Shown here: piece by piece, positions 22,364 to 50,156 of the stretch
Layout: every line of letters starts with the position of its first letter
How positions within the stretch are numbered: position 1 is the stretch's first letter
Source: Planctomycetota bacterium
Lineage (GTDB): Bacteria > Planctomycetota > Planctomycetia > Planctomycetales > Planctomycetaceae
Assembly (NCBI GenBank): GCA_003670925.1
Contig: QWQG01000070.1
Coordinates: 1-57,797, forward strand
Length of the DNA: 57,797 nucleotides
Reading direction: 5' to 3'
Made by a program: the position numbers and the translations under genes
The notes under the pieces: model-generated
Seen by the model: only the letters and a program-made list of their open reading frames with translations
What the model was told of the DNA's origin: nothing
Database searches by the model: none

Positions 22364-22402
22364 GCAATCCTTTGCGGTGTCGTTCCTTCAACACCTTGGC
22401 TT

Positions 22403-24978: not shown

Positions 24979-25005
24979 TTTTTTGTGATGGCGGGATAAA
25001 GCCCA

Positions 25006-26016: not shown

Positions 26017-26048
26017 TTCGGCAACGTGGCGGAGGCTTTCAGACCTAT

Positions 26049-26798: not shown

Positions 26799-26863
26799 AG
26801 AGCTTTACCTCTAATCGGGTCATTCTTTCAGAGCCCGTTAAGTCGCTGATTATTGATGTGTTT

Positions 26864-27727
26864 CTAAATACGATGCCATGTCCTCGGAACGATATCCGTC
26901 TCATCATTTTTTGCCGTGCGGAACCATCGAGCAGGAGCACAAACTGTCTTTTCGACAGATGTTGAGAGCCATGCGCCCCACCAACTGAACGAACTATTGG
27001 CAACCACAAAATGTCGCGCGTGACTCATCACCCGCAAGTCTTCGCAATTGCGTTGTGTATCATTGTGGTCCACAAAAACCGTTGGATGCCCTAACCGAAG
27101 ATTGTCACGGCACCAAGCGGGATCATCAGAAAACACAAATAGCTTGAGCGGTCCATACTGATCTGCCAGCAGTGTAACGGACCTTTGATAATATGCGGAA
27201 TCACATGTTCCATGCACAAGATTCGTAGCGGCATTGCTGACATAGTCGCCGCGTCGCACATGCACCGCCACCGACGTCGTGGAACGCATTTCATCAATGA
27301 TCTCAGCGTCTCGACCGTCAGCCGATTCAGTCAGCGTCAGTTCCTGCAGAAGTTGCGGTCGCATCGTCGCAAAGTAGCTTTCCGACTGCCAATAACCTAC
27401 CAGATAGGAATTGTCTGCAGCGTTCGCAAGCAGAGCCTGCCATGCAAGCCCTTTTTCACGCACCAACTTTAGCGGAGGACAACCGGAGCAGAAGAGTCGC
27501 TTCCACAATTGGCCGCCAAACCGCAGCGGTCTGTGCGTCGCCATTTCAGCCGACATTTCTGCCGATTTCAGCGGAAAGCGATGAATCGCATAATCATGCA
27601 ACTTGTAAGTCTGAAACTGAGTCACATCAAGCAAAAGGTCTGTGCCTAGCCGCGTCGCAAGCTGACGTGCAGAGGCGTACTGGAACATTTGATTTCCAAG
27701 GCCGCCATAGATTCGACTGACAATCAC
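26864..27727 (-). CDS. GT11-type (alpha-1,2-fucosyl)transferase
   Basis: A 287-residue GT11 protein. The start 'MIVSRIYGGLGNQMFQYASARQLA' and the 'SVAVHVRRGDYVS' motif (GDP-fucose binding) are diagnostic; 'FVVANSSFSWWGAWLS' is the third conserved block. Bacterial GT11 enzymes mostly add alpha-1,2-fucose to galactose, as in H-antigen-like structures. Gap of 24 bases to the upstream DegT-fold gene on the same strand. Confidence 0.92.
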   Translation of the reverse strand: MIVSRIYGGLGNQMFQYASARQLATRLGTDLLLDVTQFQTYKLHDYAIHRFPLKSAEMSAEMATHRPLRFGGQLWKRLFCSGCPPLKLVREKGLAWQALLANAADNSYLVGYWQSESYFATMRPQLLQELTLTESADGRDAEIIDEMRSTTSVAVHVRRGDYVSNAATNLVHGTCDSAYYQRSVTLLADQYGPLKLFVFSDDPAWCRDNLRLGHPTVFVDHNDTQRNCEDLRVMSHARHFVVANSSFSWWGAWLSTSVEKTVCAPARWFRTAKNDETDIVPRTWHRI

Positions 27728-27751
27728 GGATGAGTCCTTTTCGAGTCAGCG

Positions 27752-29068
27752 TTACGCTGCCCTGCGATTTGATCTCTGACCGCTGAGTTCAGCGATACAG
27801 GACTCGAAAACACTGATCAATCTGGCAATGTGTTCTTGGTTGTATCCGGGTGACAAGCCAAGATACATTCCGAAATCGTGAACTTGGTCGGCTCCCGGCA
27901 AGTGTCCCGTGTGAAGCTGAGGAAACAGTTGCGTTGCAGGCTGTCGCGCCAGATTACCTGTCACGATCGCACGTGTTTCAACACCCGCCGCTTCAAGGGC
28001 AGTCGCCAGCTGATCGCGGGAAAAAGGCGCATCATTCCGGACGAGGAGCGGCAGTGAGAACCAGGAAGACTGAGCTTTCCCGGGAATTGCTGGACGACTC
28101 AGCCAAGGTGTTGAATCGACATAGTCATGGAACTGTTTTGCCAGCTGATTTCTTCGCTCGTTAAATGTCGGCAGACGATTGAGTTGATGCAGCCCAAAAC
28201 TCGCTTGCACTTCGGTTGGACGAACGTTGAAGCCCCAGTTTAGGAACAGATAGCGAGGATCACAACGGTATTGGTCCGCCAAATCTCGGCTGTTGACCGC
28301 ATCGCGCGCCCAGCCGTGCGCTCGAAGCGACTTGAGCTGACTGGCTGTTTGCTCGTCTTGGCAAGTGATCATCCCGCCTTCCATCGTTGTCATGTGATGG
28401 GAGAAGAAAAAGGAAAATGTACCGGCGAGGCCGAATGTGCCAACGGCCTGACCATCCCATGTCGCCCCCAGCGATTCGCAGCAGTCTTCGAGAATAATCA
28501 AGCCATATTCGTCTGCCAATTCCTGAATAACATCCATATCCATGGGGCAGCCCATCAGATGCACCACGAAGATTGCTTTTGTTTTCGAAGTAATCTTGGC
28601 CCGAAGATCATCAGGATCCATATTTAGAGTCTGGGGATCAACATCCACAAGGCAACCGTTGAATCCAGCCATCAGGATTGACCAGATCTGCGTCGGCCAT
28701 GTGACGGCCGGCAGGAGGACTTCGTCGCCCGGCTGCAGCAGCGGCTTTGCTGGATTATTGAGGAGAAAAGCGGCAAGGAGATCTGCTGACGAGCCGCTGT
28801 TGACCATGATCGCGTCGGTTGAGCCTGACATCTCGGCAAACGCACGCTCAAATTGCCGTGTCTTCGTACCCATGGAGGTGCGGAATCTACACATCGAATC
28901 CAATGCTTCCGTGATTTCAAGCGCGTCGTAGGCCGGCACACTCAGTGGATACCAATAACGGGAGAGGACGGTTGGCTCAGCAGCAAAACGCTCAATCCAC
29001 GACTGCACCGTCGATTGCATCTCACCCGATAATTGGGGGTCAGATTCTTCATGTAAATCCGGCTTCAT
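27752..29068 (-). CDS. DegT/DnrJ-fold protein with His in place of the PLP lysine (RfbH/ColD-like dehydratase)
   Basis: A 438-residue DegT/DnrJ/EryC1-family protein. It has 'NSGSSADLLAA', 'PAVTWPTQIWSILMAGF' and 'LIILEDCCESLGATW' (PLP-contacting Asp195). At the Schiff-base site it reads 'SFFFSHHMTTMEGGM', so His224 stands where aminotransferases have Lys (compare arnB below, '[15 protein letters not shown]'). A His there is the mark of ColD and RfbH, which remove the C3 hydroxyl of 4-keto-6-deoxy sugars. 'GNLARQPA' also recalls RfbH 'GNLTRQP'. The cysteines that bind the RfbH iron-sulfur cluster are not apparent, which favours a ColD-like mechanism. It overlaps the fcl-like gene by 4 bases. 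The sugar substrate is not proven. Confidence 0.8.
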   Translation of the reverse strand: MKPDLHEESDPQLSGEMQSTVQSWIERFAAEPTVLSRYWYPLSVPAYDALEITEALDSMCRFRTSMGTKTRQFERAFAEMSGSTDAIMVNSGSSADLLAAFLLNNPAKPLLQPGDEVLLPAVTWPTQIWSILMAGFNGCLVDVDPQTLNMDPDDLRAKITSKTKAIFVVHLMGCPMDMDVIQELADEYGLIILEDCCESLGATWDGQAVGTFGLAGTFSFFFSHHMTTMEGGMITCQDEQTASQLKSLRAHGWARDAVNSRDLADQYRCDPRYLFLNWGFNVRPTEVQASFGLHQLNRLPTFNERRNQLAKQFHDYVDSTPWLSRPAIPGKAQSSWFSLPLLVRNDAPFSRDQLATALEAAGVETRAIVTGNLARQPATQLFPQLHTGHLPGADQVHDFGMYLGLSPGYNQEHIARLISVFESCIAELSGQRSNRRAA

Positions 29069-30057
29069 GCTGCGATTTTTCCTCGATCCTTGAGGTATTT
29101 ATATTCGACGATTGTACGTTCGATGCCAAGGTCAAGATTCACCTGTGCCGTGAAACCGAGCGTTGTGAGTTGACTACAGTCCAGACACTTGCGCGCCATG
29201 CCATCCGGTTTTGTCGCATCCCAGTTAATGATGCCCTGAAACCCGCTCGCTTGTGAGATTTTTTCGGCTAGCTGACGAATAGATACGTCAACTCCTGTTC
29301 CAAGATTAACAATGTCTGGCGCGTTCTTCCGATCCATCAGAAACAACATCCCTGCGACAACGTCATCGACATGCATGAACTCTCGTCGAGCAGTACCGGT
29401 GCCCCATAATGTCACAGCGTCCAATCCATTGGCACAGGCATCGCAGAATCGCCGCACCAGTGACGACAGCACATGTGAGCGTTGCAAATCAAAATGGTCA
29501 CCAGTGCCATAGATATTGCAAGGCATAGGACAGACAATCTGCATGCCATATTGACGGTGGTAATAGGCCGCCAACTTTAACGCCGCAATTTTTGCGAGAG
29601 CGTAACCCTCGTTCGTGGGTTCAGGCGGGCCAGTCAACAGATATTCCTCACGCATCGGTTGCGGGCAAGCGCAAGGATAAATACAGGAACTGCCAAGGAG
29701 CAGCGTCTTTTTCACTCCAAAACGCTGGCAGGCTGCAAGTCCATTCACCGTCATCTGCAGATTGTCAGCAAGAAAACCAACCGGATCTGCAATGTTGGCT
29801 GCAATCCCACCAACTTTCGCAGCCAGCAGAAAAACGTACTCAGGTCGGTGTCTTTGAAAATAAGTTTCCACGGAAGATGTTTCGCAGAGGTTCAACTCCG
29901 CACGCGGAGGGCTGACAATGCGCGAAAACCCGTGGTCTCGCAGCGCGCGAACAAGACTTCCGCCAACCATGCCAGTGGCACCTGTCACAAGAATGACGGC
30001 ATTCTTTTCCAGCGTGCTTTGTGCCATGTCTCGGGGAAAATTCAAGGCATGTTCCAT
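29065..30057 (-). CDS. GDP-L-fucose synthase / ColC-like epimerase-reductase
   Basis: A 330-residue extended SDR. It has the NADP-binding 'VTGATGMVGGSLVRAL', 'FLLAAKVGGIAANIADP', 'GSSCIYP', the catalytic Tyr-x3-Lys ('EGYALAKIAALK') and 'RREFMHVDDVV', all as in GDP-L-fucose synthase (Fcl), which epimerises and reduces GDP-4-keto-6-deoxymannose. ColC, which makes GDP-colitose, belongs to the same family. The next gene is an RfbH/ColD-like dehydratase, so either GDP-fucose or a GDP-3,6-dideoxyhexose product is possible. No GDP-mannose dehydratase (gmd) is in the window. An alternative start is ATG at 30027. Confidence 0.85.
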   Translation of the reverse strand: MEHALNFPRDMAQSTLEKNAVILVTGATGMVGGSLVRALRDHGFSRIVSPPRAELNLCETSSVETYFQRHRPEYVFLLAAKVGGIAANIADPVGFLADNLQMTVNGLAACQRFGVKKTLLLGSSCIYPCACPQPMREEYLLTGPPEPTNEGYALAKIAALKLAAYYHRQYGMQIVCPMPCNIYGTGDHFDLQRSHVLSSLVRRFCDACANGLDAVTLWGTGTARREFMHVDDVVAGMLFLMDRKNAPDIVNLGTGVDVSIRQLAEKISQASGFQGIINWDATKPDGMARKCLDCSQLTTLGFTAQVNLDLGIERTIVEYKYLKDRGKIAA

Positions 30058-30155
30058 GGATGCAAGTCAATCGAATGTGAGCCGTCAGTGCAGTCGGATG
30101 CCCATAGTTTTCATGCGATTCTCTTTTGAGGGTACGGGCGACGCACTATGTTCGA

Positions 30156-30172
30156 CAAAAATACGATTTTTG
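30156..30172. promoter_or_regulatory. Palindrome in AT-rich divergent region
   Basis: CAAAAAT-ACG-ATTTTTG, a perfect 7-bp inverted repeat, lies in the AT-rich spacer between the divergent fcl-like and FkbM genes. The size and place fit a regulator-binding site, but no cognate regulator is known. It could equally be incidental. Confidence 0.35.
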
Positions 30173-30355
30173 GTCAAGGCCAATGTCATTCATGCAAACA
30201 ATAAAAATAGACCAAAAAAGGAACCTAAATAACGTGAACCTGCGATCAAAACTGATCTCCCGGCAATCGCGGCTTGTTGCTAGCATTTGTCGAGAATCGC
30301 GGTGATTTTTTAGGCAAATATTTTAAATCCGGAATGACCCAGCGAGAAAATTGGG

Positions 30356-31015
30356 ATGCGGTATTTCAACAAGCTTCGACGGCGTCTACAGAAGACCTTC
30401 TTTCCGAGCGCGTGGGACATTGTGATTCGCCGATGGAAGACTGATAAAGGTGATCAGACTCTGCGTTTGAACTACGATCTCAAGCGAGATTCAGTGGTTC
30501 TGGATCTCGGTGGTTACCGTGGCGAGTGGGCTGATAATATTCATGCTCGATATGGATGCAAAATCCATGTCTTTGAGCCAGTCGCATCCTTCGCCAATGG
30601 AATTGCAACTCGGTTCCGGAGTCACGATGCGATCGAAGTCCACCAGTTCGGCTTGGGAAGCAGTACCCGTGCAGAATCCATTGGACTCTCAGCGGACGGC
30701 AGTTCGGTGTTTCAACGCAATGGTCGGACAGAATCCATCCAGATTGTGGATGTCGCCGACTGGATTCAACAGCAAGCGACGTCACAGTTTGGCCTGATGA
30801 AGATCAACATTGAAGGCGGCGAATATGAGGTTCTGGAACGCCTGCTCGAGACTGGGTTAGCATCCAGAATGGACAATATTCAGGTGCAGTTCCATAACAT
30901 TGCGCCGGACTCCGAATCTCGAATGAACTCAATTCTGAAACGGCTGGAGGCTTCCCATGAGCCGACGTATCAGTATCCGTTCGTCTGGGAAAACTGGCGA
31001 CGTGGTGCGGCTTAA
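30356..31015 (+). CDS. FkbM-family methyltransferase (second copy)
   Basis: A 219-residue protein with the FkbM methyltransferase core: 'SVVLDLGGYRGEWADNI' (SAM motif I), 'IHVFEPVASFANGIATRF', 'GLMKINIEGGEYEVLERLLETG' and 'IQVQFHNI'. It is shorter than the copy at 24118 and lacks that copy's N-terminal helical part, so the two are not close paralogues. Probably methylates a sugar of the surface glycan. Divergent from the fcl-like gene. Confidence 0.85.
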   Translation: MRYFNKLRRRLQKTFFPSAWDIVIRRWKTDKGDQTLRLNYDLKRDSVVLDLGGYRGEWADNIHARYGCKIHVFEPVASFANGIATRFRSHDAIEVHQFGLGSSTRAESIGLSADGSSVFQRNGRTESIQIVDVADWIQQQATSQFGLMKINIEGGEYEVLERLLETGLASRMDNIQVQFHNIAPDSESRMNSILKRLEASHEPTYQYPFVWENWRRGAA

Positions 31016-33072: not shown

Positions 33073-33972
33073 TTACGCAACCGACGGAAGCGACTCTTGA
33101 AAGGCAATCCAACCTTCGCGACCGGGAAGCTGGCGTGGGGCGATGCGGTCAGAAGGGTACGGGACGGAAGCGTGCAGGAGGTCACCCGTTGGCACAACCT
33201 CGATGTTTCGTTCCGCAGCCTTCCGCAGAAAATCGTCGAACAGTTGATGGCAAGCGATACCTTCCACCTCGGCGTGGATGGTGAGCAAATTCAAATGGTG
33301 CGGTTGGATTAGGGAAAACAGATGTTCGTTGTAGTTCGAATTGGTGATACCATCGCGACCGATAATTTCATCGTACGTCGGGAGGTTGACCGGAATCTGC
33401 GGTTGAGTTAGACGCTGGCCATGCACTTCGGGGATAAACACACTGTGGCCACGACAATCGCTGTTAAATTTGAACGCGAATCGTTCCTTCTGCAGCAACA
33501 TCGCATCGTTGGCTTTCCAGCCGGGTGCCGCTGAACAGGTCGGTGGCCTTCCGCAGATTTGGGTGAGCGATTGAACTCCTCGTGCGAGATGTTGGTAAAT
33601 CGCTTCAGCATCCATCGCATCGATGCGGGCCTGCCACGCATGGTGGTCCCACGCATGCAAGCCAATCTCGTGCCCTTCGTCGGCGGTGCGGCGAATTGGT
33701 TCCGCCAGATTTTTGCCGATGAGTGGGCCGGGATAAAAAGTGCCGCGTAGCAGAATATCCCAACCATACAGGCTAGCAGCATTGCTCCGCAACATTTTCA
33801 CGAGGAAGGCTGGCTTCAGCAAACGCCAAAGGTGCCGCCCCATGTTGTCGGGACCAACCGAAAAGAAGAACGAACCCTTGACGCCAAATTTTGCAAGGCT
33901 GTCGCACAACGCCGGGACACCAAGTTTGGTGCCCCGGTATGTATCAACATCAATTCGTAACCCCAATTTCAT
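33073..33972 (-). CDS. arnD: 4-deoxy-4-formamido-L-arabinose-phosphoundecaprenol deformylase
   Basis: ArnD removes the formyl group from undecaprenyl-phosphate-linked L-Ara4FN at the periplasmic side, which drives the pathway to L-Ara4N. The 299-residue protein is a NodB-type polysaccharide deacetylase with metal-binding 'RIDVD' (Asp8/Asp10) and '[13 protein letters not shown]'. It matches the E. coli enzyme over long stretches ('[16 protein letters not shown]', '[16 protein letters not shown]', 'IHAEVEG'). ATGA overlap with arnA. Last gene of the arn run. Confidence 0.96.
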
Positions 33973-36008
33973 GCCGCGTATCGCTTAGCAATGGCCTCAA
34001 CAGGCGAACTGTTGTCTTCATACCTAAACAAGCCTGAATCGACAGCCTGCTGCAGGAAGAAATCGAGCGTCTTAGCAATGGAAACTTCGAACGCGATGCT
34101 CGGTTCCCAGTCAATGTACCGCTTCGCATTTCGAATACTCGGCACACGTCGTTGCATGTCCTGATATCCTTTACCGTAGAAGGCGCTGCTTTCCACGTCG
34201 ATGCAACCTGCGGATGGCGGGAACTGGCTCCGCAATGGATGCTCGTCAAATTTTCTCGTCAGAATCTCAGCGAGTTCACGGATACTGGCTTCGTTCTCAG
34301 GGTAGCCAATATTGACGATCTTCCCGTCGCAAAGACCGTCCTTGTTTTCAACAATCCGATAGAGCGCCTCGATCGCATCCTCCACGTCGATGAATGAGCG
34401 CTTCTGTTCGCCACCATCGACAAGCTGGATTGGCGTGCCCTGACACAGGTTGAGAATCAGCTGCGTGATCGCCCGAGACGACCCCACGCGGGCGGACATG
34501 AGCGTATCCAAACGCGGCCCGATCCAGTTGAACGGTCGGAACAAAGTAAACTTCAAATTCTCTTTCTCGCCGTAGGCCCAAATCACTCGATCGAGCAGTT
34601 GTTTTATACTGGAATAAATCCAGCGTTGGTTCTTGATCGGCCCGGTGACGAGCGTCGATGATTCTTCATCGAAGTTTTCATCTGGGCACATCCCGTAGAC
34701 TTCCGAAGTCGAAGGGAAAATGATCCGTTTTCCGTATTTAACGCAAGCGCGGATCGTACGCAGATTTTCTTCGAAATCCAGTGAGAAGACACCCAATGGA
34801 TTGCGTGCATATTCCATCGGCGTCGCAATTGCGACCAGCGGAAGAACCACGTCGCATTTGCGAATGTGGTACTCCGTCCATTCATTGTGAATGGAAATAT
34901 CCCCCTCACGGAAATGGAAATTCGGGTGGTGGAGCAGGTGCTGAATATAATTTGAGTTCAGGTCAAGTCCGTAGACATCATACTTTCCGCTGGCAGTGAG
35001 CTTGTCGCTCAGATGGCTTCCAATGAAGCCGTTCACTCCTAGGATGAGTACGCTCTTTTTTCGCTCTGCCTGAAACTTAGCAATGAGGTGCGGGCCAAAC
35101 TTCATGTTGGGTTGGAGCAGGGCATCTTTGGCAAACTGCCGACCCGAACAAATTACACCAGTTTCGAGCTGTGCCGATTCCACGCGGACACTGCCGGACC
35201 CGCAGGCAACAGTCAGCGGATCGACGGAAATGATCGTTCCCGGAGCGACTCCTGGAGCATCACCTTTCGCTGTGACTTGCCAGATGAGAGTTTTACGGTC
35301 ACTGATATATGTAAAAGCACCGGGATAAGGTTTTGTGACGGCGCGAACGAGGTTACGTACTTCTTCCGCACTTCTGGTCCAATCAATCTCGCCATCCTTT
35401 GGACGGCGGCCACCATAGTAGGATGCTTTTGAATTGTCCTGCGCTACGCTTGGGGCTGAGCCATCTTTAATGAGTGGCAGCGTATCCGCGAGCATCCCGG
35501 TGGCTTCGGTAATAGTTCTCTGAAACAGCGTCTTCGCCGTATCGAAATAGGAGATTGCGATACTGCGTTGGGCAATGATGTCGCCCGCGTCTGCACTCGG
35601 CGTCATGTAATGCAACGTCACACCAGTCTCGGTTTCGCCATTCACCAAAACCCAATTAATCGGACTGCGACCACGGTAGGCAGGGAGCAGTGAACCGTGC
35701 AGGTTGATACATCCAAACTTTGGAATGTCCAGAATCTGGCTCTTGACCATGTTCCGATAGTAAAAAGAAAAGATCAGATCGGGCTCCATCTCGCGAATAC
35801 GTTTTTCCCAGACAGGATGATTGATATCCTCCGGTGCATAGACAGGAATGCCTTTCTCCGCGGCAAGCTCAGCCACGGAGTCGAACCAGATATTTTCGTG
35901 CGCATCGTCGACATGCGTGAACACAGCTGCAATTTCAAAGTCGTTGGCAAGTAGAGCTTCTATTCCAACACAGCCAATCGAATGGTAACCAAGTACGACA
36001 ACCTTCAT
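33969..36008 (-). CDS. arnA: Bifunctional UDP-L-Ara4N formyltransferase / UDP-glucuronic acid decarboxylase
   Basis: A 679-residue two-domain enzyme. The N-terminal formyltransferase (1-~300) has Asn102, His104 and Asp140 ('[19 protein letters not shown]', 'PSADAGDI'). The C-terminal SDR (from ~315, '[14 protein letters not shown]') oxidises and decarboxylates UDP-glucuronate and has 'STSEVYG' (Ser/Glu), 'IYSSIKQ' (Tyr-x3-Lys) and 'EQKRSF' (the arginine proposed as general acid). Residue numbers of the first triad equal those of E. coli ArnA. A strong AAAGGAG lies upstream. Between arnC and arnD in an arn operon. Confidence 0.97.
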
Positions 36009-36038
36009 AACTTTAGCACTCCTTTGCTCTGTTGTTCG

Positions 36039-36989
36039 CTAACTGTCCAGTCCAACGACGGATCGAACAAAGTAGCGGGGCCGATCGCGGACATCTTGGT
36101 AGATGCGACCGATATACTCCCCAAGTAAGCCAAGACCGATAAACTGGGCACCAATGAGCACGAACAAGATGGCAAACAGGGTAAACACCCCCTGCGCAGC
36201 CCACTCCGAGCCCCACACAACTCTCAAGATGAGAATCAACAAACCAAGCCCGATGCCAAACGCTGAAATAACCCCACCAATCACACTCAGCAGACGCAGC
36301 GGAAACGTTGTAATACTTGTTAACAAATCAAATTGAAGATTAATAAGTTTCCAAAAACTGTATTTTGAATCCCCTATCAGGCGTTCGCTGTGCCCGACCG
36401 GGATTTCAATAACCTTGTGCGCAAAAGCATTCGCCAAGACCGGAATGAATGTGCTGCGTTCCGGACACTGCAACATCGCCTGCACAATTTCACGAGTGTA
36501 ACCTCGCAGCATACAGCCATAATCATGCATTAGAACGCCGGTTGACTTCTGCACAATCCAATTGACAATTTTCGAAGGCATCCGCCGCAGAAACGAATCC
36601 TGTCTGTTTTGGCGAACGGTTCCCACAACATCATAGCCTTCCTGCATTTTTGCCACAATATGGATAATTTCCTCGGGTGGGTTCTGCAGATCGGCATCAA
36701 GTGTCACCACAAAACCGCCCCTCGCTTGCGCAAAACCAGCCATTACTGCCGCATGTTGCCCGTAGTTGCGGTTGAGTAGCACCCCGATCACTTTGCCACG
36801 ATGGGCTTCAGCGGCAGCCGTAATCATTTCCACGGAACGATCCCGGCTACCGTCGTCGATCAGAATCAATTCATACGGCAGTTCCAGCGTGTCACACGTT
36901 GTAAGACAGCGGCGGATAAGCTCATCCAGATTGCCTTGCTCATTGAAGACCGGGATCACGACAGAGACCATGTTTGTTTCATTGATCAT
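36039..36989 (-). CDS. arnC: Undecaprenyl-phosphate 4-deoxy-4-formamido-L-arabinose transferase
   Basis: A GT2 enzyme of the inner membrane that transfers L-Ara4FN from UDP to undecaprenyl phosphate. The 316-residue protein has the GT2 domain ('[18 protein letters not shown]', '[12 protein letters not shown]', '[14 protein letters not shown]' with DxD) and two C-terminal membrane helices ('[23 protein letters not shown]', '[30 protein letters not shown]'). It ends with '[10 protein letters not shown]', typical of ArnC. Starts 2 bases after arnB. Confidence 0.95.
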
Positions 36990-36991
36990 GC

Positions 36992-38149
36992 TTAATGTTT
37001 CCCAGCCAATGTGTCTTGCATCGCATCGATGACATCATCCACGTCCGCTGTCGACATCGCTGGGCACAGCGGCAACGACAAAATGCGATCGGAGTTCCAT
37101 TCGGTGTTGGGCAACATGCCTTTTTTTAGACCGAATGTTTCAGCATAGTATTTTTGAAGATGCACGGCACGGAAGTGAAGACCTGTTCCGATATTTCTTT
37201 CCTTGAGTCCGGCCATGAATTGATTCCGATCCATGCCCGTTTTGTCGCTGTCGACCCGCACAATAAAGAGATGCCACGCATGCGTGTGCGGATAATCCGG
37301 CGTTGCCAGCGGGATAATTTCGGAAATCCCACGGAGGCGAGTTTGATAATGCTCAGCTAATTCCTGACGTTTGGCATTGAATACGTCCAGTTGGGCAAGT
37401 TGCCCGAGTCCGAGGCTCGCCGAGATATCGGTCAGATTGTATTTATAGCCGGGCTGCATGACTTGAGCCTGCGGAGTTCGCCCCTGTGCCTGGCGGTCAA
37501 AGGAATCGACTGCGAGGCCATGAAACTTAAGAGATTTCACCTTCGTCAGCAGGTCTTGATCATCCGAGCAAACCATGCCACCCTCACCTGTGGTCATGTT
37601 TTTGATGGGGTGGAAGGAAAAAACAGACGTTCCCTGTTTTCCGACAAAGCTCCCTTTGTACTTTGTTCCGGCCGCGTGCGCAGCATCCTCTATCAAAGCA
37701 ATTCCACGCTCGCTGGCCAACTCGCGAATCGAATCCAAGTCAACTGGGGCACCGGCAAAGTGCACAGGGATAATTAATCGCGTCTTATCGGTAATCAGCG
37801 GTTCAATTGTTTCTCGTGTGACGAGCAGTGTGTCGCGATCGACATCAGCAAAGACCGGAGTGGCGCCTTGGAGGCAGATGAGGTTAACGGTGGAGACCCA
37901 AGTCATTGCTGGGGTGATGACTTCATCGCCAAGGCCGATTCCAAGTGCCTGCAGAAGGCAATGCATGCCCCCCGTCGCAGAACAGACAGCCACGGAACCC
38001 GCGGCGCCGGTATACTCAGAAAACGCATCCTCGAACCGACCGCACTTTGCCCCGGTCGTGATCCAGCCGGAACGAAGGACATCGACCACATCACGGATTT
38101 CTTCTTCAGAAATACTCGGTGTAGAAAAAGGTAGGAATTGGCTTCGCAT
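36992..38149 (-). CDS. arnB: UDP-4-amino-4-deoxy-L-arabinose aminotransferase
   Basis: PLP enzyme that aminates UDP-4-keto-arabinose with glutamate. The 385-residue DegT-family protein has the Schiff-base lysine Lys183 in '[15 protein letters not shown]', '[11 protein letters not shown]' (PLP Asp) and an N-terminus '[14 protein letters not shown]' as in ArnB. Gap of 27 bases after arnT with GGAGAG about 11 bases upstream. The lysine here contrasts with the His224 variant in the neighbouring DegT gene at 27752. Confidence 0.95.
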
Positions 38150-38176
38150 TCAGGGATCTCTCCGTGGATTAACGAT

Positions 38177-39838
38177 TCATTTTTCGACGAGAGGCTCATA
38201 CACGGCAAACCAAATTTTCCGCCACTGCCGTTGATATGTTGGCAGGGGCAGCTGGTCCCTTAGCGGGTCACCACGCTGCGATTCCATGACCACAACCACG
38301 CGTTGAGGACCACGCTGCGTCACCATGGCATGCAATTCCAAAACGTCAAGGAAGCGATGCTCAGCTTCCGGATAAGACAAGCCGTAAGCCACCTCGCCTT
38401 GGTCCATGCACAGATAAACATCCTCGCGTTGATACACATAGCAAACCGCGTGCATCGTCTTGGTATTTGCGACGACCAGCGTATTCGGCTGAAGATGCTG
38501 CTTTTCTGATTCAAGAAACCCTTGGATCCCCAGACTGCTAGAAATCTCCGTTGGACTACAGAGCGTACCGGTGACAAAGATCGCAGCCACGGGAAGCCCC
38601 AGCATGATGGTTTTTTGCAAACCGTCACGATCACGGGAAGCCCTCCACACCAACGCGAACGCGGTGGATAGTCCAATGAGCCAACCGATGGCCTTAGCCA
38701 GAAAATTCTCATCTAACTTAGGAATTTTATCAAAGGCAAACAGCCCAAGAACCACCAACGTAGCGATCAGCGACACGCCAATGATCGCCCCAATCAAAGA
38801 GACTCCAACTTGGAGGAAACGATTCTCTTGGCTGCGTTCAAACCTATCAATCAAGGCGATAGCCAACAGCAGGGCGAACGGGGCGAAGCAAGGAAGAATA
38901 TAGGTTCCCAATTTCCCCGACGAACATGAAAAGAAAAGAAATGGCATGATCATCCAAACCAGAGCGAACTGAATGAGTGGCTCCGATTTTCGCTGGCGGA
39001 TCAGATCTCGCAGCGGCAGAGGCCCGATCAACGACCAAGGCAATGTGCCCCCTAAAAAAACGGGAACAAAAAACCAGAACGGGAATTTGTGTTGGCCACC
39101 CCCAGGTTCTAAGTACCGATTGATATGCTCTTCCCAAAAGAAATATCGCCAGAAATCCGGTTCCTTTGACGCAATCGCCAGAGCCCACGGCAGTGACACG
39201 ACGCCAGCCACCGCAAGCGGAATCCACGGCATTGTGAAAAGGTCTTTCCACTGCCTCCGAAACACAAGGAATGGGACAATCACCACTACCGGCACAGCAA
39301 ACGCAATAAAGCCTTTTACTAAGAAGGCGCCCCCGGCGAAAACTCCTGACAGTGCCAACCATCCGATGCGTTTTTTCCCTCCAGCCGTGAGTGCTGGATA
39401 GAAACTACAGAGCGAGAGGGTCACGCAACACGAGAGCATGCTATCGAGCACACTGAAGGTCCCAACGCCCATAACTTCGGCGCAAGTGAGGAAAATAAAT
39501 GCGGCAAGCGCTGCGGTTTGCTGAGAACTGTCACGTTTCAATAAAAGGTAGAGACCCACAGCAGACAATGCAATCGCTAATGCCGACATCAGGCGAACGG
39601 CAAAATTTGTCTCGCCAAAAATGGCCATCGCAGCAGCGTTCAAAATATGGCCGCCAGCCGGTTTTTCGAAATAGCGCAACCCGTTAAGCCGCGGCACAAT
39701 AAAGTCGCCGGTTGCCAGCATTTCCCGCGAAATCTCGCCGTACCGCATCTCGTCGGGAATCGCGAGTTGACGCGAATTGAGTGGCAAAAGATAGACGAAA
39801 AAAAAGAGACCGACGAGGCCGAACATTACACCCCGCAT
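38177..39838 (-). CDS. arnT: 4-amino-4-deoxy-L-arabinose lipid A transferase
   Basis: ArnT moves L-Ara4N from undecaprenyl phosphate to lipid A phosphates in the periplasm, lowering the negative charge and giving resistance to cationic peptides such as polymyxin. The 553-residue GT39-type protein has about twelve membrane helices and the ArnT core: 'IPDEMRYGEISREMLATGDFIVPRLNGLRYFEKP', 'FWRYFFWEEHINRY', 'SCSSGKLGTYILPCF' and the C-terminal 'YGLSYPEAEHRF'. In E. coli arnT comes after arnD; here it is the first enzyme gene. It overlaps the small ORF at 39826 by 13 bases. Confidence 0.93.
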   Translation of the reverse strand: MRGVMFGLVGLFFFVYLLPLNSRQLAIPDEMRYGEISREMLATGDFIVPRLNGLRYFEKPAGGHILNAAAMAIFGETNFAVRLMSALAIALSAVGLYLLLKRDSSQQTAALAAFIFLTCAEVMGVGTFSVLDSMLSCCVTLSLCSFYPALTAGGKKRIGWLALSGVFAGGAFLVKGFIAFAVPVVVIVPFLVFRRQWKDLFTMPWIPLAVAGVVSLPWALAIASKEPDFWRYFFWEEHINRYLEPGGGQHKFPFWFFVPVFLGGTLPWSLIGPLPLRDLIRQRKSEPLIQFALVWMIMPFLFFSCSSGKLGTYILPCFAPFALLLAIALIDRFERSQENRFLQVGVSLIGAIIGVSLIATLVVLGLFAFDKIPKLDENFLAKAIGWLIGLSTAFALVWRASRDRDGLQKTIMLGLPVAAIFVTGTLCSPTEISSSLGIQGFLESEKQHLQPNTLVVANTKTMHAVCYVYQREDVYLCMDQGEVAYGLSYPEAEHRFLDVLELHAMVTQRGPQRVVVVMESQRGDPLRDQLPLPTYQRQWRKIWFAVYEPLVEK

Positions 39839-40149
39839 GACAGCCCCCGAACGCGATGCCCGTGGTGAGCCACGATGAGCCGCTCCGCTAATTCAGCTTG
39901 TGCTTGCTGCCTTCGAACTTCACAACGGCCTTGCGACGATGGAGTGAGGTACAAGCATCCCGAAGTTCTAAGCTTCAGAATAAACGCCGCGGGTTGTTCC
40001 CACAGCGATTTTCGCAGTTGCAATAGTTGGCTGGAACGAGTCGCCTTCACGCAATTCCGCGGATCAGCAACCTGACATTGAGATACAACAAGCTGCCTCC
40101 TCAGATCCACGAGCCGCGCAGCAAGCGAAACTTTATTTAGCACATCCAT
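39826..40149 (-). CDS. 107-residue protein of unknown function at the head of the arn operon
   Basis: The ATG at 40149 has an AAGGAG 7 bases upstream, one of the best ribosome-binding sites in this part of the window. Its stop lies inside the first codons of arnT (13-base overlap), so translation is probably coupled. The product is basic ('MDVLNKVSLAARLVDLRRQLVVSQCQ' at its start, many Arg and Gln), with cysteines at three or four places, no signal peptide and no membrane segment. I do not recognise a family. The six-gene order (this ORF, arnT, B, C, A, D) suggests a role in the same pathway, though this is inference. Confidence 0.6.
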   Translation of the reverse strand: MDVLNKVSLAARLVDLRRQLVVSQCQVADPRNCVKATRSSQLLQLRKSLWEQPAAFILKLRTSGCLYLTPSSQGRCEVRRQQAQAELAERLIVAHHGHRVRGLSCGV

Positions 40150-40667: not shown

Positions 40668-41048
40668 GTGGATCTCCCAAATCTTCCGCCGCTTTTCGTC
40701 TATGGGGCGATTCTTGTTGGGTTTGTGGTGACCAACCTCCTGTTGGCTCACACCTTGGGCCCGCGCAAGCATACGCCCGTTAAGGATATGCCTTACGAAT
40801 CCGGCATGGACCCGATCGGCGACGCGCGGCAGCCATTCGACGTCCGGTTTTACCTTGTGGCGATCTTGTTTCTTGTCTTTGACGTGGAACTGTTGTTTTT
40901 GTACCCATGGGCTGTGAGCGCCTATAGTGAGCTTGGTATTCCGCCGGAGCTCCGCGACACGGTGTTTGGAGTCATGCTTGTTTTCATGGCAACTCTGGCA
41001 TTGGCGTGGGTTTATGCTTGGCGGAAGGGAGTGTTTCGATGGCGGTAG
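40668..41048 (+). CDS. nuoA: NADH-quinone oxidoreductase subunit A
   Basis: A 126-residue membrane subunit with three helices. It has 'PYESGMDPIGDARQPFDVRFYLVAILFLVFDVELLFLYPWA', the conserved signature of NuoA/ND3, on the loop near the quinone channel. Start GTG with AAAAGG 7-8 bases upstream. First gene of the complex I run; overlaps nuoB by 10 bases. Confidence 0.96.
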   Translation: MDLPNLPPLFVYGAILVGFVVTNLLLAHTLGPRKHTPVKDMPYESGMDPIGDARQPFDVRFYLVAILFLVFDVELLFLYPWAVSAYSELGIPPELRDTVFGVMLVFMATLALAWVYAWRKGVFRWR

Positions 41049-41662
41049 GTCTCCCCGAAAATGTCTTTATGACAAAGTTGGACGCGGCGGCGAGCTGGGC
41101 GCGTTCCAACAGTTTGTGGCCCATGCCTTTTGCCACAGCCTGCTGCGGGATCGAGCTGATGGCGACAGCGGCGTCGCGACATGACCTTGCTCGATTTGGC
41201 GCGGAAGTGATGCGCTTCAGTCCACGGCAGTGTGATCTGTTGATCGTGGCTGGTCGAGTCGTCATGAAGATGCTGCCCGTGCTGCAGCGCATCTGGTTGC
41301 AAATGCCCGAACCCAAATGGTGTATTTCCATGGGAGCTTGTGCATGCTCGGGCGGCGTGTTCGATACGTACGCCGTCGTGCAGGGCGTGGATCGATTCAT
41401 CCCTGTTGATATGTACGTTCCAGGTTGTCCTCCGCGTCCCGAACAATTGCTCGCTGCGGTCATCGACATGCAAGCCAAGGTTCGCCGCACAGGGACAGTC
41501 ATGGGTAAAGAATTCATGGCGCGTGACACGCCGATGGGACCTGAACCGTTCGAATCCGAGGAACGCTACCGCATTCAGGACGCAAACCTAGTGCAGCTCG
41601 GCGGCTTCTCAGCGGCGATGACTTCGGCTGGGATGAAGCGAGGAGCTGGGAATCATGGTTGA
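41039..41662 (+). CDS. nuoB: NADH-quinone oxidoreductase subunit B
   Basis: A 207-residue peripheral-arm subunit that carries the terminal [4Fe-4S] cluster N2. Cluster ligands are Cys35/Cys36 ('TACCGIE'), Cys101 or 103 ('GACACSGG') and Cys130 ('PGCPPRPE'). ATG at 41039 was chosen because the longer in-frame start at 41006 would overlap nuoA by more than 40 bases. The last ~40 residues extend beyond the NuoB core, as in many bacteria. Confidence 0.96.
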
Positions 41663-42146
41663 ACTCTCCGTCTTGCAGCAGCGGTTTGGGATCGAATTGG
41701 TCGAGAGTACTTTTCGCGACAATCGTCGGATTGATGTGCCTGCCGCGAAGCTGTTTGATCTTCTGAGCTGCCTGAAATCTGATCACGGTTTTAACACGCT
41801 GATCGATATGACGGCCGTGGATTATCTGGAATACGAAGGCGCCACAGACCGATTCGGTGTCGTTTACATGCTGTTAGATGTGTTTGGCGGCGAACGTGTG
41901 ATTGTGCGAACAGCCGTGAACCTGCCGGATCCAAAGTTGCCATCGGTTTATTCGCTCTGGCGTGGGGCCGACTGGATGGAGCGTGAAGTGTTCGACATGT
42001 TCGGAATCGTCTTCGACGGCCATCCGGATCTGCGTCGCATCCTGATGCCAGAAGAGTTCGCCGCATTTCCCTTGCGAAAAGATTATCCGCTGAAAGGACG
42101 CGGCGAGCGGCACAATTTCCCAGTAATTACGCGGGCTGGCAGCTAG
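41655..42146 (+). CDS. nuoC: NADH-quinone oxidoreductase subunit C
   Basis: A 163-residue peripheral subunit. '[41 protein letters not shown]' and '[15 protein letters not shown]' are the NuoC core. NuoC and NuoD are separate here, unlike the fused NuoCD of E. coli. Overlaps nuoB by 8 bases. The usual next gene, nuoD, is displaced by apbE. Confidence 0.95.
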
Positions 42147-42477
42147 CTCGTCGGTTAACATATTCTTCACGCAGTCAGGAATGAGGCCCTGCGACAGCAG
42201 CCGGAACGCGCTAGCGGGCTGTTGACTTAATGGGTTTATCAGCCGATGGGCGCTAGCGAGCAATGCCACTTCCTTTGGTTCCGGACTCAACAACCCGAAG
42301 CGTCAGCGAGGGAATTCTCGCTGAAAATAAACAGCCTCAGCCCCTCGCTGACGCTTCGGGTTACAAAGTGAGTGCCATTGGGCTAGCGCACTTCGGCTGG
42401 TACCGCGTGAAGTATATTCTGAAATCCATGCAGGCTAGGCTTCCTAGTTTGGACGACGAACGATCGTGCAGGCCCTT
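42147..42477. other. Intergenic stretch between nuoC and apbE with hairpin repeats
   Basis: No gene found. An imperfect hairpin around CGCTAGCG lies near 42208-42257, and a perfect 21-bp inverted repeat at 42292-42362. This break of the nuo run by 331 bases is much longer than other gaps within it. Confidence 0.5.
42292..42362. repeat. Perfect 21-bp inverted repeat (CCCGAAGCGTCAGCGAGGG type)
   Basis: Arms at 42292-42312 (core CCCGAAGCGTCAGCGAGGG) and 42342-42362 pair perfectly across 21 bases, with a 29-base spacer. It lies between nuoC and apbE. It may be a mobile hairpin repeat, or slow transcription so that downstream genes are expressed less. Confidence 0.85.
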
Positions 42478-43632
42478 ATGAAGTCTCTCGTCAACATCAT
42501 CGCAGCCGCCATTCAGTGCTCGACGATTGTCCTGGCAGTCGGTTCATCAGCCAACGCCGAGACGCTGAAACTCAACGGCAAAACGATGGGATCGTACTAC
42601 GCGATCGCGATTGACGGGGCGGCCGAATCCAATGCCGCAGAGATCCAGACAAAGATGGAAGCGGTCCTTGCAGACGTCAATCGCCAGATGTCAACGTGGG
42701 ATCCGGAATCAGAAATCTCTCGATTCAATCAGTCCGTGAGTACTGACTGGTATCCCGTGAGTCCCGGCTTCGCTCAAGTGGTGTTGGAGTCGATCCGACT
42801 TCACAAGGTCACGAGTGGCGCTTTTGATCCAACGATCGCCCCGCTCATTGACCTTTGGGGATTTGGTGCAAGGCGACCTAAGTCATTTCCGAGTCAGGAA
42901 GCGATCGACACGGCCCGCAGTAAGACAGGCATGCAATTCATCGAAGCGAAACAGGATCCGCCGGCTCTTCGCAAAACACGTTCAGACGTCACGTTGAATC
43001 TTTCCGCAATCGCGCCAGGTCATGGTACTGATCGATTGTCTGAGCAATTGACAAAGTTGGGTTATCCGTCGCATGTAGTGGATATCGGGGGTGAAGTCCG
43101 GACTGGAACCCTAAAAGCCAACGGCGAACACTGGCGATTGGGTGTTGAATCACCGTTCGGCGAGATTCAGCGGGTGATTGAATGCTCGAAAAACTCGGTT
43201 TCCACATCGGGAAACTATCGGAATTACTTCGATTACAAAGGCGTGCGGTATTCTCACACGATTGACCCGGCAACGGGTAAGCCCTTGATGAATCCTCCAG
43301 CCTCGGTGTCGGTGCTCAGCGATTCGTGCATGACGAGCGATGGTCTGGCGACAGGCTTAATGGTGATGGGGATCGAGCGGGGTTTACTGTTCGCGAAGCA
43401 GCAGGGCTTGTCGGTTTTGTATCTGGAGGTGGTCGAGGAAAGGACCATTATTGAACACGCGACAGGCGAATTTCTGGCGGTTGCTTTGTCGTCATCGATT
43501 TTAAGATCAAAAGAACAGGGTGCCGGAAATACGATTTCATTGACCGTAATTCTGGCTGTCTTGCTGTTGGCTGTGACAGCCATGGGAATCGTTATTTGTC
43601 GATCCACAGGATCCGAAACAATTCGTGATTGA
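42478..43632 (+). CDS. ApbE-like FAD:protein FMN transferase
   Basis: A 384-residue protein with a signal peptide ('VLAVGSSANAE'), the ApbE domain ('MGSYYAIAI', 'DVNRQMSTWDPESEISRFN', 'SGAFDPTIAPLIDLWGFG', 'SHTIDPATGKPL', 'TSDGLATGLMVMG') and an added C-terminal membrane helix ('ISLTVILAVLLLAVTAMG'). ApbE covalently attaches FMN to Thr/Ser in subunits of Na+-NQR, Rnf and related complexes. Complex I is not a known target, so its presence inside nuo is odd. The conserved 'LGAIAKGYAVD' motif reads 'LSAIAPGHGTD', a changed Lys position. Start ATG at 42478, with an in-frame GTG at 42466. Confidence 0.82.
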   Translation: MKSLVNIIAAAIQCSTIVLAVGSSANAETLKLNGKTMGSYYAIAIDGAAESNAAEIQTKMEAVLADVNRQMSTWDPESEISRFNQSVSTDWYPVSPGFAQVVLESIRLHKVTSGAFDPTIAPLIDLWGFGARRPKSFPSQEAIDTARSKTGMQFIEAKQDPPALRKTRSDVTLNLSAIAPGHGTDRLSEQLTKLGYPSHVVDIGGEVRTGTLKANGEHWRLGVESPFGEIQRVIECSKNSVSTSGNYRNYFDYKGVRYSHTIDPATGKPLMNPPASVSVLSDSCMTSDGLATGLMVMGIERGLLFAKQQGLSVLYLEVVEERTIIEHATGEFLAVALSSSILRSKEQGAGNTISLTVILAVLLLAVTAMGIVICRSTGSETIRD

Positions 43633-43655
43633 CGCAAGCGACAGCGATTTACAGT

Positions 43656-43685
43656 CAAATCGCCAGAGCTATCTATGGCGATTTG
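43656..43685 (+). repeat. Hairpin after apbE
   Basis: Perfect 10-bp arms CAAATCGCCA (43656-43665) and TGGCGATTTG (43676-43685) with a 10-base loop, 24 bases after the apbE stop. Without a T run; possible rho-independent-like stop or stabiliser. Confidence 0.65.
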
Positions 43686-43916
43686 CTAGCAAGTTCTGTC
43701 AAATGCGAGACGAGATTTCTCTGAGAATTCTCAGTGAAGCGACGCCCTGAGAACGTGTCTGGTTCTTTTCGCTGCCTCTGCAAGAATGCGGTGAATGGGA
43801 AAAATCGTTTCTGGGCGTGCTGCCCTGTTCGTTTTGGATCAGAGTGTTCATTATACCGCGTCCAATTCTTTATCGTGGCAGTTGCAAGTTTCCACCCTTT
43901 CCATCGGTGTTTTTCG

Positions 43917-45137
43917 ATGCCCTTAACTGCTGTTGATAACTTGGAAGCTGAATCGGCAGAGCGTGAATATGTCTGGACGCTGAATTTCGGGCCTCAGCAC
44001 CCGGCAACGCATACGACGCTGCGACTGGTCTTGACGTTAGACGGTGAGCGCGTCCTCAAGGCTGTGCCGTACATCGGCTACCTGCACAGCGGATTTGAAA
44101 AGCTCGGCGAACATCTGGATTTCAACCAGTATGTCACTATCGTGGATCGCATGAATTATCTGTCGCCGTTGGCGAATGAGATTTCGTGGCATCACGCGGT
44201 TGAGAAGCTGTTGAACATTGAACTGACGCCTCGCTGCAAGTATTTAAGGACCATCCTTGCTGAACTGATGCGGATGCACGATCACCTGTTGAACGTCGGC
44301 ACCACGGCCCTAGACTTGGGCGGTTTTACAGCGTTCCTCTACTTTTTCCAGCAGCGCGAACACATTTACGACATTGTGGAAATGGCCTCAGGCCAGCGGT
44401 TCCACACCAGTTACACGCGTGTCGGCGGCGTGCTGTTTGACGTGAACATGGACTGGATCAACAGTGTTCGCAAGTTCATCAAAGAGTTCCCAAAGGTCTA
44501 TGACGAAGTTGATCGGCTGCTGACAAAAAATCGCATATTCGTCGATCGCACGAAGGGCGTTGGCTACTTGAGCACTGAAGATGCAGTGAACTTGAGTGCC
44601 AGCGGTCCGATCGCTCGCGCAAGCGGGATTGAGCGTGACCTGCGGCGCGATGAACCGTATCTCGCTTATGAAGATCTTGATTTTGACGTCGTCTGTTCAA
44701 AAAACGGTGACTGCTACGCCCGGTATTTGGTACGGATGGGTGAATTGCTGCAAAGCCTAAAAATTATCGAACAGGCGATTGAGAACATTCCGGGGGGACC
44801 CGTCAATATTGCGGTCGACAGCGACATGGTGCTGCCCGCGAAGCCGTCGGTCTATCGCAGTATCGAAGGGCTCATTCAGCACTTTGAAGTCATCATGCCG
44901 AACAAGGGCTACGCTGTACCTCGGGAGCAGGTCTACGCGGCGACGGAATCGCCGAACGGCGAGTTGGGATTCTTTATCGTGGGCAACGCCGAAACCCGTG
45001 CGTATCGCGCGAGGACGCGCCCGCCATCGTACATCCACTTCTCCATGTTTCCGCACATGATCAAGGATCATCAGCTCAGCGACGTAGTGGCGGTCTTGGG
45101 AAGTCTCAACATTATTGCAGCGGAACTTGATCGCTAA
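43917..45137 (+). CDS. nuoD: NADH-quinone oxidoreductase subunit D
   Basis: A 406-residue subunit that forms the quinone-binding pocket with NuoB. 'LNFGPQHPATHTTLRLVLTLDGE', 'YIGYLHSGFEKLGEH', 'MNYLSPLANEISW' and 'GELGFFIVGNAETRAYRARTRPPSYIHF' are all conserved; it ends 'ELDR' like NuoD in general. ATG at 43917 was chosen over the in-frame ATG-like start at 43734, whose 61-residue extension is Cys/Phe-rich and unlike the family. The 284 bases before it include the hairpin after apbE. Confidence 0.96.
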   Translation: MPLTAVDNLEAESAEREYVWTLNFGPQHPATHTTLRLVLTLDGERVLKAVPYIGYLHSGFEKLGEHLDFNQYVTIVDRMNYLSPLANEISWHHAVEKLLNIELTPRCKYLRTILAELMRMHDHLLNVGTTALDLGGFTAFLYFFQQREHIYDIVEMASGQRFHTSYTRVGGVLFDVNMDWINSVRKFIKEFPKVYDEVDRLLTKNRIFVDRTKGVGYLSTEDAVNLSASGPIARASGIERDLRRDEPYLAYEDLDFDVVCSKNGDCYARYLVRMGELLQSLKIIEQAIENIPGGPVNIAVDSDMVLPAKPSVYRSIEGLIQHFEVIMPNKGYAVPREQVYAATESPNGELGFFIVGNAETRAYRARTRPPSYIHFSMFPHMIKDHQLSDVVAVLGSLNIIAAELDR

Positions 45138-45155
45138 GGCAGAGGCAGTTCATCC

Positions 45156-45629
45156 ATGAGTGCACTAAGTGAAGAAATCCGGGAGCGGATTCGGCAGGAG
45201 TTCCCCAAGTATCCGAATAAACGCGCAGTAACGCTTCCGGCATTGCACATCGTGCATGATGCCATGCGTGCGGTCTCGACGGATGCCATCATCGGGATCG
45301 CCGAGTTACTGGAGTTGCACCCCGCAGAAGTTCACGACACGATGTCGTTTTACAATTTCTTTAAAGATGAAAAACACGCTCTCGGAAATCATCGGATCTG
45401 GGTTTGTCGCAGTATTTCATGCATGTTGCGTGGTGGCGAAGAAGTTCTGGAAAAAGTCTGTAACAAGTTTCACGTGCATCCTGGCCAAACGTCAGCAAAT
45501 GGCAAGGTGACATTGGAGTTTGCCGAGTGCTTGGGTGCCTGTGAAGGGGCTCCCTGCATTCTAGTGGATGACGAATGTCATATGGACATGAATGCGGAAT
45601 CCGTATCGGCGTTGATTGAGAAACTGTAG
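45156..45629 (+). CDS. nuoE: NADH-quinone oxidoreductase subunit E
   Basis: A 157-residue thioredoxin-fold subunit of the NADH-oxidising tip with [2Fe-2S] cluster N1a. Ligands lie in 'VCRSISCML' and 'ECLGACEGAPC'. Helical N-terminus with 'LHPAEVHDTMSFYNFF', family-typical. 18 bases after nuoD; nuoF follows after 94 bases that hold a small hairpin. Confidence 0.95.
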   Translation: MSALSEEIRERIRQEFPKYPNKRAVTLPALHIVHDAMRAVSTDAIIGIAELLELHPAEVHDTMSFYNFFKDEKHALGNHRIWVCRSISCMLRGGEEVLEKVCNKFHVHPGQTSANGKVTLEFAECLGACEGAPCILVDDECHMDMNAESVSALIEKL

Positions 45630-45683
45630 GGATTCGCAGTCGTCTTGAGTTCGCTGACCGGGTCTCTAGGCCTTAGTTTTATG

Positions 45684-45706
45684 GGACAGGTCCTATGACC
45701 TGTACT
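45684..45706 (+). repeat. Small hairpin between nuoE and nuoF
   Basis: ACAGGTC (45686-45692) and GACCTGT (45697-45703) flank a CTAT loop. It matches a common dispersed form, with GGG before and AC after the arms. It sits about 20 bases before the nuoF start. Confidence 0.5.
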
Positions 45707-45723
45707 GCGTTGAGAGGACCGTT

Positions 45724-47058: not shown

Positions 47059-47070
47059 AAATTGAAACCA

Positions 47071-47101
47071 AAAATTTGAGATTTCAAATTTCAAATTTGA
47101 T
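47071..47101. repeat. AAATTTGA repeat, copy 2 (between nuoF and nuoG)
   Basis: A tract 'AAAAATTTGAGATTTC' followed by repeated TCAAATT units fills most of the 63-base gap before nuoG. It can also fold on itself. Confidence 0.6.
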
Positions 47102-47121
47102 ATCTATGGTCAGGTAACGGC

Positions 47122-48783: not shown

Positions 48784-48864
48784 GTGAGCGGCATGCGTCA
48801 GCTTGCCGGTACAGGAATGCATAGAGCGACGATCGACCAGAGGGCTGACGCCCAACCGCTCGCC
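48783..48864. repeat. Imperfect hairpin between nuoG and nuoH
   Basis: GAGCGGCATGCGTCAGC and GCTGACGCCCAACCGCTC pair with a bulge over a 40-base spacer. It fills the space between the nuoG stop and the chosen nuoH start; the in-frame extension of nuoH to 48784 would translate this repeat. Confidence 0.65.
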
Positions 48865-48885
48865 AAATCAGGATACCCAAGACTT

Positions 48886-50137: not shown

Positions 50138-50156
50138 TGACTACTGAAAACACTTT

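Follow-up and report, generated by a model that had tools for sequence, protein, structure and literature searches.

In Escherichia coli K-12, the seven-gene arnBCADTEF cluster (pmrHFIJKLM) encodes five enzymes for the modification of lipid A with 4-amino-4-deoxy-L-arabinose (L-Ara4N, or Ara4N), with arnT placed after arnD and with arnE and arnF in addition. Contig QWQG01000070.1 of a Planctomycetota bacterium (GenBank assembly GCA_003670925.1), analysed here over its whole length of 57,797 nucleotides and hereafter called the window, carries an arn operon with the same five enzymes, the same fused ArnA, the same B–C–A–D block and most of the tested residues. Unlike in E. coli, arnT is the first gene, no arnE or arnF was found and the host belongs to another phylum; identity to the E. 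coli K-12 proteins is 58% for ArnB, 61% for ArnC, 58% for ArnA and 50% for ArnD, and only 37% for ArnT. With a probability of roughly 0.8, we read this locus as a working L-Ara4N operon that the genus would have acquired horizontally, either from Kiritimatiellota of the Pontiella type or out of a pool shared with them.

A compact operon of five full-length arn genes

The operon runs on the minus strand from position 39838 down to 33073 in the order arnT–arnB–arnC–arnA–arnD, and all five genes are full length (Table 1). Its genes are tightly spaced, with 27 bases between arnT and arnB, 2 between arnB and arnC and 30 between arnC and arnA, and arnA and arnD overlap by 4 bases. The best NCBIfam match of each protein is the corresponding Arn equivalog over nearly its full length. 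ArnA (NF005998, E = 0, 1037 bits) and ArnD (NF011923, E = 1.1e-120, 402 bits) score above the curated cut-offs of 777 and 382 bits, respectively; ArnT (NF009784, E = 8.7e-140, 467 bits against a cut-off of 567), ArnB (NF008658, E = 8.6e-176, 584 against 631) and ArnC (NF007986, E = 7.6e-149, 495 against 529) score below theirs. Chance is no serious alternative for the arn identity, because ArnA matches at E = 0. The nearest solved structures are likewise Arn proteins: 5ezm for ArnT (E = 3.3e-37), 8sng and 1mdo for ArnB (E about 1e-137), 9hwj for ArnC (E = 1.6e-130), 8gjh and 1z7e for ArnA (E about 1e-262) and 8t0j for ArnD (E = 8.2e-90). An earlier reading of the letters alone (the original prediction) had placed all five Arn enzymes in one compact run with arnT leading, in contrast to enterobacteria. 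Both statements hold, the first through the full-length family matches and spacings of at most 30 bases, the second through the window coordinates set against the E. coli order; its right-hand limit of 40149 is wrong as the edge of arnT, which starts at 39838. The core operon is confirmed as real and complete, and it is probably working.

Table 1. Coordinates of the arn operon and of its neighbouring gene groups in the window.
Feature	Coordinates	Strand	Description
arnT	38177..39838	-	553 aa; PMT/GT-C-type lipid IV(A) 4-amino-4-deoxy-L-arabinosyltransferase; leads the operon
arnB	36992..38149	-	385 aa; UDP-Ara4O aminotransferase
arnC	36039..36989	-	316 aa; undecaprenyl-phosphate Ara4FN transferase, GT2
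arnA	33969..36008	-	679 aa; formyltransferase fused to UDP-glucuronate decarboxylase/dehydrogenase
arnD	33073..33972	-	299 aa; Und-P-Ara4FN deformylase
Complex I genes (nuoA, nuoB, nuoC and further genes)	40668..57530	+	Pfam matches; ApbE gene inserted; divergent from arnT
Variable surface-glycan region (left flank)	19374..31015		Pfam matches: ELM1-like, MsbA-like ABC transporter, Glycos_transf_1, GT11, GT25, FkbM methyltransferases, DegT aminotransferase, epimerase

The catalytic residues, which the original prediction held to be intact, are kept with one exception. The lysine of ArnB at E. coli position 188 is conserved, as are 10 of the 11 positions tested in ArnA (N102, H104, D140, T432, S433, E434, Y463, K467, N492 and R619, in E. 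coli numbering); the eleventh, K526, is a glutamine in the window. For ArnT, excerpts of PMC5377068 describe Tyr-43, Lys-69, Arg-254 and Glu-493 as required in Burkholderia. The window protein has the motifs RYG (32–34), YFEKP (56–60), HINRY (238–242) and GEVAYGL (481–487), and keeps all four of the Tyr, Lys, Arg and Glu residues required in Burkholderia and Salmonella. Its RYG stands in place of the RYA motif, with the tyrosine kept, and RYG also occurs in 9 of 22 other rows of the alignment.

Position 40149 marks the ATG start of another, small open reading frame (ORF; 39826–40149, 107 aa), which in a longer form with a TTG start reaches 40191 (121 aa). The small ORF overlaps the arnT start by 13 bases, and a purine-rich stretch precedes its ATG. 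It has no NCBIfam or Pfam match and no relative among the arn loci compared, and on these grounds it was rejected, in either form, as a candidate ArnE or ArnF. No counterpart of the 107-residue frame is present in the 515 bases examined upstream of arnT in the locus of a second genome of the genus, HKST-UBA72 (L003). Promoter-like sites (6 found, shuffle mean 5.6) and terminator-like sites (15 found, shuffle mean 9.5, standard deviation 3.0) were not used as evidence.

Kinship with Kiritimatiellota

Among the matches listed, the ArnA proteins closest to that of the window are from HKST-UBA72 (89%) and then from Pontiella-type Kiritimatiellota (82, 78, 75, 72 and 71%), and the nearest named isolates with this operon type are Kiritimatiellota. 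Further relatives in the same set are a Victivallis metagenome-assembled genome (MAG; 68%), a Planctomycetota MAG and a Kiritimatiellae MAG (65% each) and Desulfobacteraceae (64–65%), with enterobacteria (59–61%) and Geobacteraceae (about 49–57%, best segment) as distant ones. The order T–B–C–A–D is shared by HKST-UBA72 and by the Kiritimatiellales loci L005 and L008, while L006 has the same order with two extra PMT-type genes inserted; in L007, also from Kiritimatiellales, a contig end cuts arnB. An order with arnT first is therefore not peculiar to the window, as some Kiritimatiellales have it too. Gene order links only some of the five Kiritimatiellales loci, L004–L008, to the window (L005, L008 and, with inserts, L006). 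The five have ArnA identities of 71–82%, group with the window in the trees and, like it, have no arnE or arnF match in the stretches examined; they differ from it in host phylum. The Victivallis locus has arnA and part of arnD only.

Relatives for the trees were drawn from the best 80 of 117 loci, 22 of which were offered together with 15 loci from the phylum, E. coli and the window. After matches that were too short had been dropped, 37 rows were kept for ArnA, 23 for ArnT, 33 for ArnB, 36 for ArnC and 36 for ArnD, 31 having all of ArnB, ArnC and ArnD. The ArnA tree was also built by a careful method; the ArnT and ArnBCD trees are quick ones. With the careful method, the 37-row ArnA tree pairs the window with HKST-UBA72 as its sister, with a bootstrap/SH-aLRT (Shimodaira–Hasegawa-like approximate likelihood-ratio test) support of 100/99, and this pair joins Pontiella GMC10 (99/93), then B1224 (99/99) and then Tobar (93/89), all inside a clade of the five Kiritimatiellales rows L004–L008 (100/99). 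The quick ArnT and ArnBCD trees show the same neighbours. A Kiritimatiellales clade that excludes the window, in groups chosen after the trees were seen, is rejected by the approximately unbiased (AU) test for ArnA (p-AU = 1.15e-7) and for ArnT (p-AU = 0.0024). A phylogeny of the Arn proteins had been proposed as a check of the original prediction; its outcome reveals a kinship across phyla that the earlier reading had missed, the window grouping with Pontiella-type Kiritimatiellota and not with other planctomycete copies. We read this as a transfer of the whole arn block, with Kiritimatiellota as the most likely source; the kinship is more secure than the direction. A plasmid source was considered and rejected: of 120 plasmid records that match ArnA at E ≤ 1e-100, 93 are from Pantoea, and the best has about 60% identity, so that no near one exists among them.

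Substrate, acceptor and flippase

The window is the whole of one contig (C120) in a genome of 5.78 Mb (G000) that is 99.5% complete and comprises 259 contigs. The absence of lpx genes from this genome had been named beforehand as a possible refuter of the original prediction; lpxA, lpxB, lpxC, lpxD and lpxK are all present, as is waaA, with lpxA adjoining lpxC. The same genome has two matches above cut-off to UDP (uridine diphosphate)-sugar dehydrogenase. Together, these genes make both the arn substrate and the lipid A acceptor plausible. The suggestion that the operon bears on an open debate about the planctomycete envelope is not borne out, as excerpts of PMC3422733, PMC10632474 and PMC5394234 show that lipid A and lipopolysaccharide (LPS) in planctomycetes are already in print. 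According to the excerpted text of PMC10632474, nearly all of lpxABCDKL is essential in Planctopirus, and LPS has been reported for Gemmata in work cited there. Whether planctomycetes have lipid A is accordingly a matter that earlier work had shown and not one that the arn operon decides.

By analogy with the families to which the five proteins belong, ArnA would oxidise and decarboxylate UDP-glucuronate, ArnB would aminate the product to UDP-Ara4N, and ArnA would then formylate it. ArnC would load the formylated sugar (Ara4FN) onto undecaprenyl phosphate (Und-P), from which ArnD would remove the formyl group. A flippase would carry Und-P-Ara4N across the inner membrane, and ArnT would transfer Ara4N to the phosphate groups of lipid A, by which the negative charge of the outer membrane would fall. 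Each reaction, the acceptor and the effect on charge are predictions from the Arn families. Such a pathway would extend a known means of modifying outer-membrane charge to a planctomycete genus. Polymyxin tolerance is a possible consequence. In the planctomycete S. acidiphila, excerpts of PMC12493201 report that polymyxin B resistance is lost in an ornithine-lipid mutant; because resistance there depends on ornithine lipids, polymyxin tolerance alone would be no proof of arn function. The operon offers a concrete candidate for lipid A modification in a phylum in which polymyxin B resistance has been tied to ornithine lipids in one species.

The statement of the original prediction that arnE and arnF are not seen nearby stands, as no tblastn match in the window is better than E = 2.1. 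At E ≤ 0.01, tblastn with E. coli ArnE and ArnF finds matches in 6 of 35 sources (L002, L011, L013, L014, L015 and L016) and none in the window or in L003–L008. Genome-wide, nothing scores above the cut-off for the small multidrug resistance (SMR) family PF00893 (best E = 0.143), and EamA gives 8 matches, 7 of them above cut-off, in ORFs of 219–400 aa except for one 69-aa frame that a contig end truncates; proteins with two matched EamA domains are among those in the genome. E. coli ArnE is recognised by both PF00893 and EamA, and ArnF by EamA alone and weakly, so that a diverged ArnF could escape these searches. The absence of ArnE/F points to another flippase. A broader proposal, which we put forward only tentatively and with clearly less than even odds, is that a compact module of five Ara4N genes, lacking ArnE/F, travels as a block between phyla of the Planctomycetes–Verrucomicrobia–Chlamydiae (PVC) group into surface-glycan loci, and that it works either with another Und-P-Ara4N flippase, such as a two-domain EamA or DedA-type carrier, or with an ArnT that has adapted to an acceptor, lipid A or core, specific to planctomycetes.

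Weighing the evidence

Several observations weigh against a working operon acquired from Kiritimatiellota. ArnT, ArnB and ArnC all fall under their NCBIfam cut-offs, and no flippase of the ArnE/F type was found in the window or, by PF00893 and EamA, genome-wide. LptD was not detected genome-wide with PF04453, a model that recognises no more than 2 of 14 controls and fails on Bacteroides. The guanine–cytosine (GC) content of the arn genes (0.50–0.55) does not stand out from that of the flanking genes (0.51–0.58), and a recent transfer visible by base composition was rejected on this account. For ArnBCD, a clade of Kiritimatiellales only is borderline and not quite rejected (p-AU = 0.0504), which makes the direction of transfer less sure. 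Gene order varies within the supposed donor group. In L004, which among the Pontiella rows lies closest in the ArnA tree, arnC–A–D is accompanied by no arnB or arnT match (E ≤ 1e-3) in the 7.2 kb upstream, and L025, from the Kiritimatiellae MAG, has the order B–C–A–D, carries its full ArnT copies 4.5 kb downstream and takes another place in the ArnA tree.

The alternatives to this reading are not mutually exclusive, and their probabilities do not sum to one with that of the reading itself. Ara4N might be made and attached elsewhere than to lipid A, for example to an LPS core sugar or to another surface glycan built by the neighbouring glycosyltransferases, with ArnT being the same kind of enzyme acting on another acceptor. 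Of the five proteins, ArnT is the most divergent (37% to E. coli, and 74% to HKST-UBA72 as against 89% for ArnA) and scores under its NCBIfam cut-off, the operon lies beside a glycosyltransferase-rich region, and L-Ara4N in Burkholderia is also found on an inner-core sugar, according to excerpts of PMC5377068. Yet all four needed residues of ArnT are kept, the lpx genes are present, and the fast change of ArnT may mean no more than that the lipid A structure differs; we consider another acceptor unlikely. That the operon has decayed or does not function for want of a flippase is improbable: no gene of the arnE/arnF type was found, but the five frames are open, the tested residues are kept bar one, and the genome encodes two-domain EamA proteins. 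Moreover, the L004–L008 stretches are likewise without an arnE/F match, so that the absence of these genes nearby looks normal in the lineage.

Two further alternatives concern the origin of the operon. Vertical inheritance from a planctomycete or PVC ancestor, followed by many losses, would fit the occurrence of arn in several other planctomycete families, in some Kiritimatiellota and in a Victivallis MAG; we hold it to be very improbable, given that arn occurs in just 2 of the family's 170 genomes, that the ArnA tree scatters the planctomycete rows and that it places the window copy inside Kiritimatiellales, several of which share the window's gene order. A single clade of the 17 planctomycete ArnA rows is rejected (p-AU = 9.5e-96), as is one of 16 rows after removal of a long-branched one (p-AU = 3.0e-183). 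An artefact of assembly or binning, in which a Kiritimatiellota fragment was joined to a planctomycete contig, might be suspected from the fragmentation of the genome into 259 contigs and from the nearest named isolates with this operon type being Kiritimatiellota, but it is hardly credible. Within a single contig, the operon has flanking genes on either side, and NuoD is 93% identical (residues 60–467) to that of a same-genus genome, as against 83% for the runner-up among the 61 family genomes searched; this identity marks the contig as planctomycete, with the nuo genes as its anchor. In addition, HKST-UBA72 is a second MAG with a diverged copy (ArnA 89%) beside the same nuoA, and an artefact is unlikely because two MAGs carry diverged arn copies at that place. 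If the operon came from Pontiella-type Kiritimatiellota, or if both drew on one shared pool, a whole arn pathway would have moved between phyla as a unit.

Distribution among planctomycetes

The arn genes are not peculiar to the window organism. ArnA scores above cut-off in 15 of 392 sampled genomes of the phylum, in 9 family groups (14 of 391 without the window genome); one of these 15, G345, has two stops within the match. In the family of the window, the two genomes with ArnA (of 170) are its own and HKST-UBA72 (G496), both among 18 listed genomes of the same genus. A literature search limited to PubMed Central (PMC) papers under Creative Commons licences turned up no report of arn in Planctomycetes, and in excerpts of PMC9036809 arnA is not assigned to Planctomycetes.

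The other Planctomycetota loci (L104–L118 and L028) resemble the window in having ArnA, ArnB, ArnC and ArnD homologues and differ from it in ArnA identity (51–65%), in their places in the trees and in the position of arnT, which mostly comes after arnD or lies at a distance. It follows arnD in L108, L111, L112, L113, L115, L116 and L118, lies 1.8 kb upstream in L117 and on the opposite strand in L109, and is not seen in L114. In family group f46 (L104–L107 and L110), five planctomycete genomes with arn have a weak ArnT-like protein (27–28% identity) 2–3 kb upstream of arnB, and in L110 arnD is beyond the contig end. By the ArnA tree, the arn genes of this group appear to have been acquired separately from those of the window. 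In the Kiritimatiellae MAG locus L025 (12912–20725), a short ArnT-like piece directly follows arnD, and two full-length ArnT-like genes stand in tandem further on.

The locus and its flanks

The operon lies between the complex I genes and a variable surface-glycan region (Table 1), from which it is separated by a BNR-repeat gene and an ORF that matches no family (31127–32925). The MsbA-like transporter of that region scores 423 bits with TIGR02203, under the 602-bit cut-off. G429, another genome of the genus, has FkbM, GT11 and GT25 genes after its nuo genes, with MsbA-like and ELM1-like genes (53% identity each) beyond them; it has no arn match in the 39 kb at the locus and no ArnA genome-wide at a strict 1e-150. 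By coordinates, nuoA and the MsbA-like gene lie about 18 kb apart in the window and about 7.6 kb apart in G429. HKST-UBA72 shares with the window the gene order and the position adjoining nuoA, but its operon is reversed relative to nuoA (534–7735 in L003 versus 33073–40668 in the window), so that two species of the genus have opposite arn orientations, and a palindromic element lies between its arnB and arnC.

A strong palindrome of this kind is located at 22405–22480 of the window, upstream of the MsbA-like gene (GGGTCAGGAACC-type, predicted RNA fold of -36.7 kcal/mol), and the element between arnB and arnC of HKST-UBA72 (L003 3371–3435) is an 83% copy of it. The palindrome is mobile-looking and resembles repetitive extragenic palindromic (REP) elements; its exact arm motif occurs in none of the other 13 loci checked. 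Within the complex I genes, an ApbE-family gene (42466–43632) lies between nuoC and nuoD, which are adjacent in G429; the gene after nuoC in L003 is an NqrA gene. Towards the left end of the window, positions 5607–7286 encode an IS110-type transposase of 559 aa.

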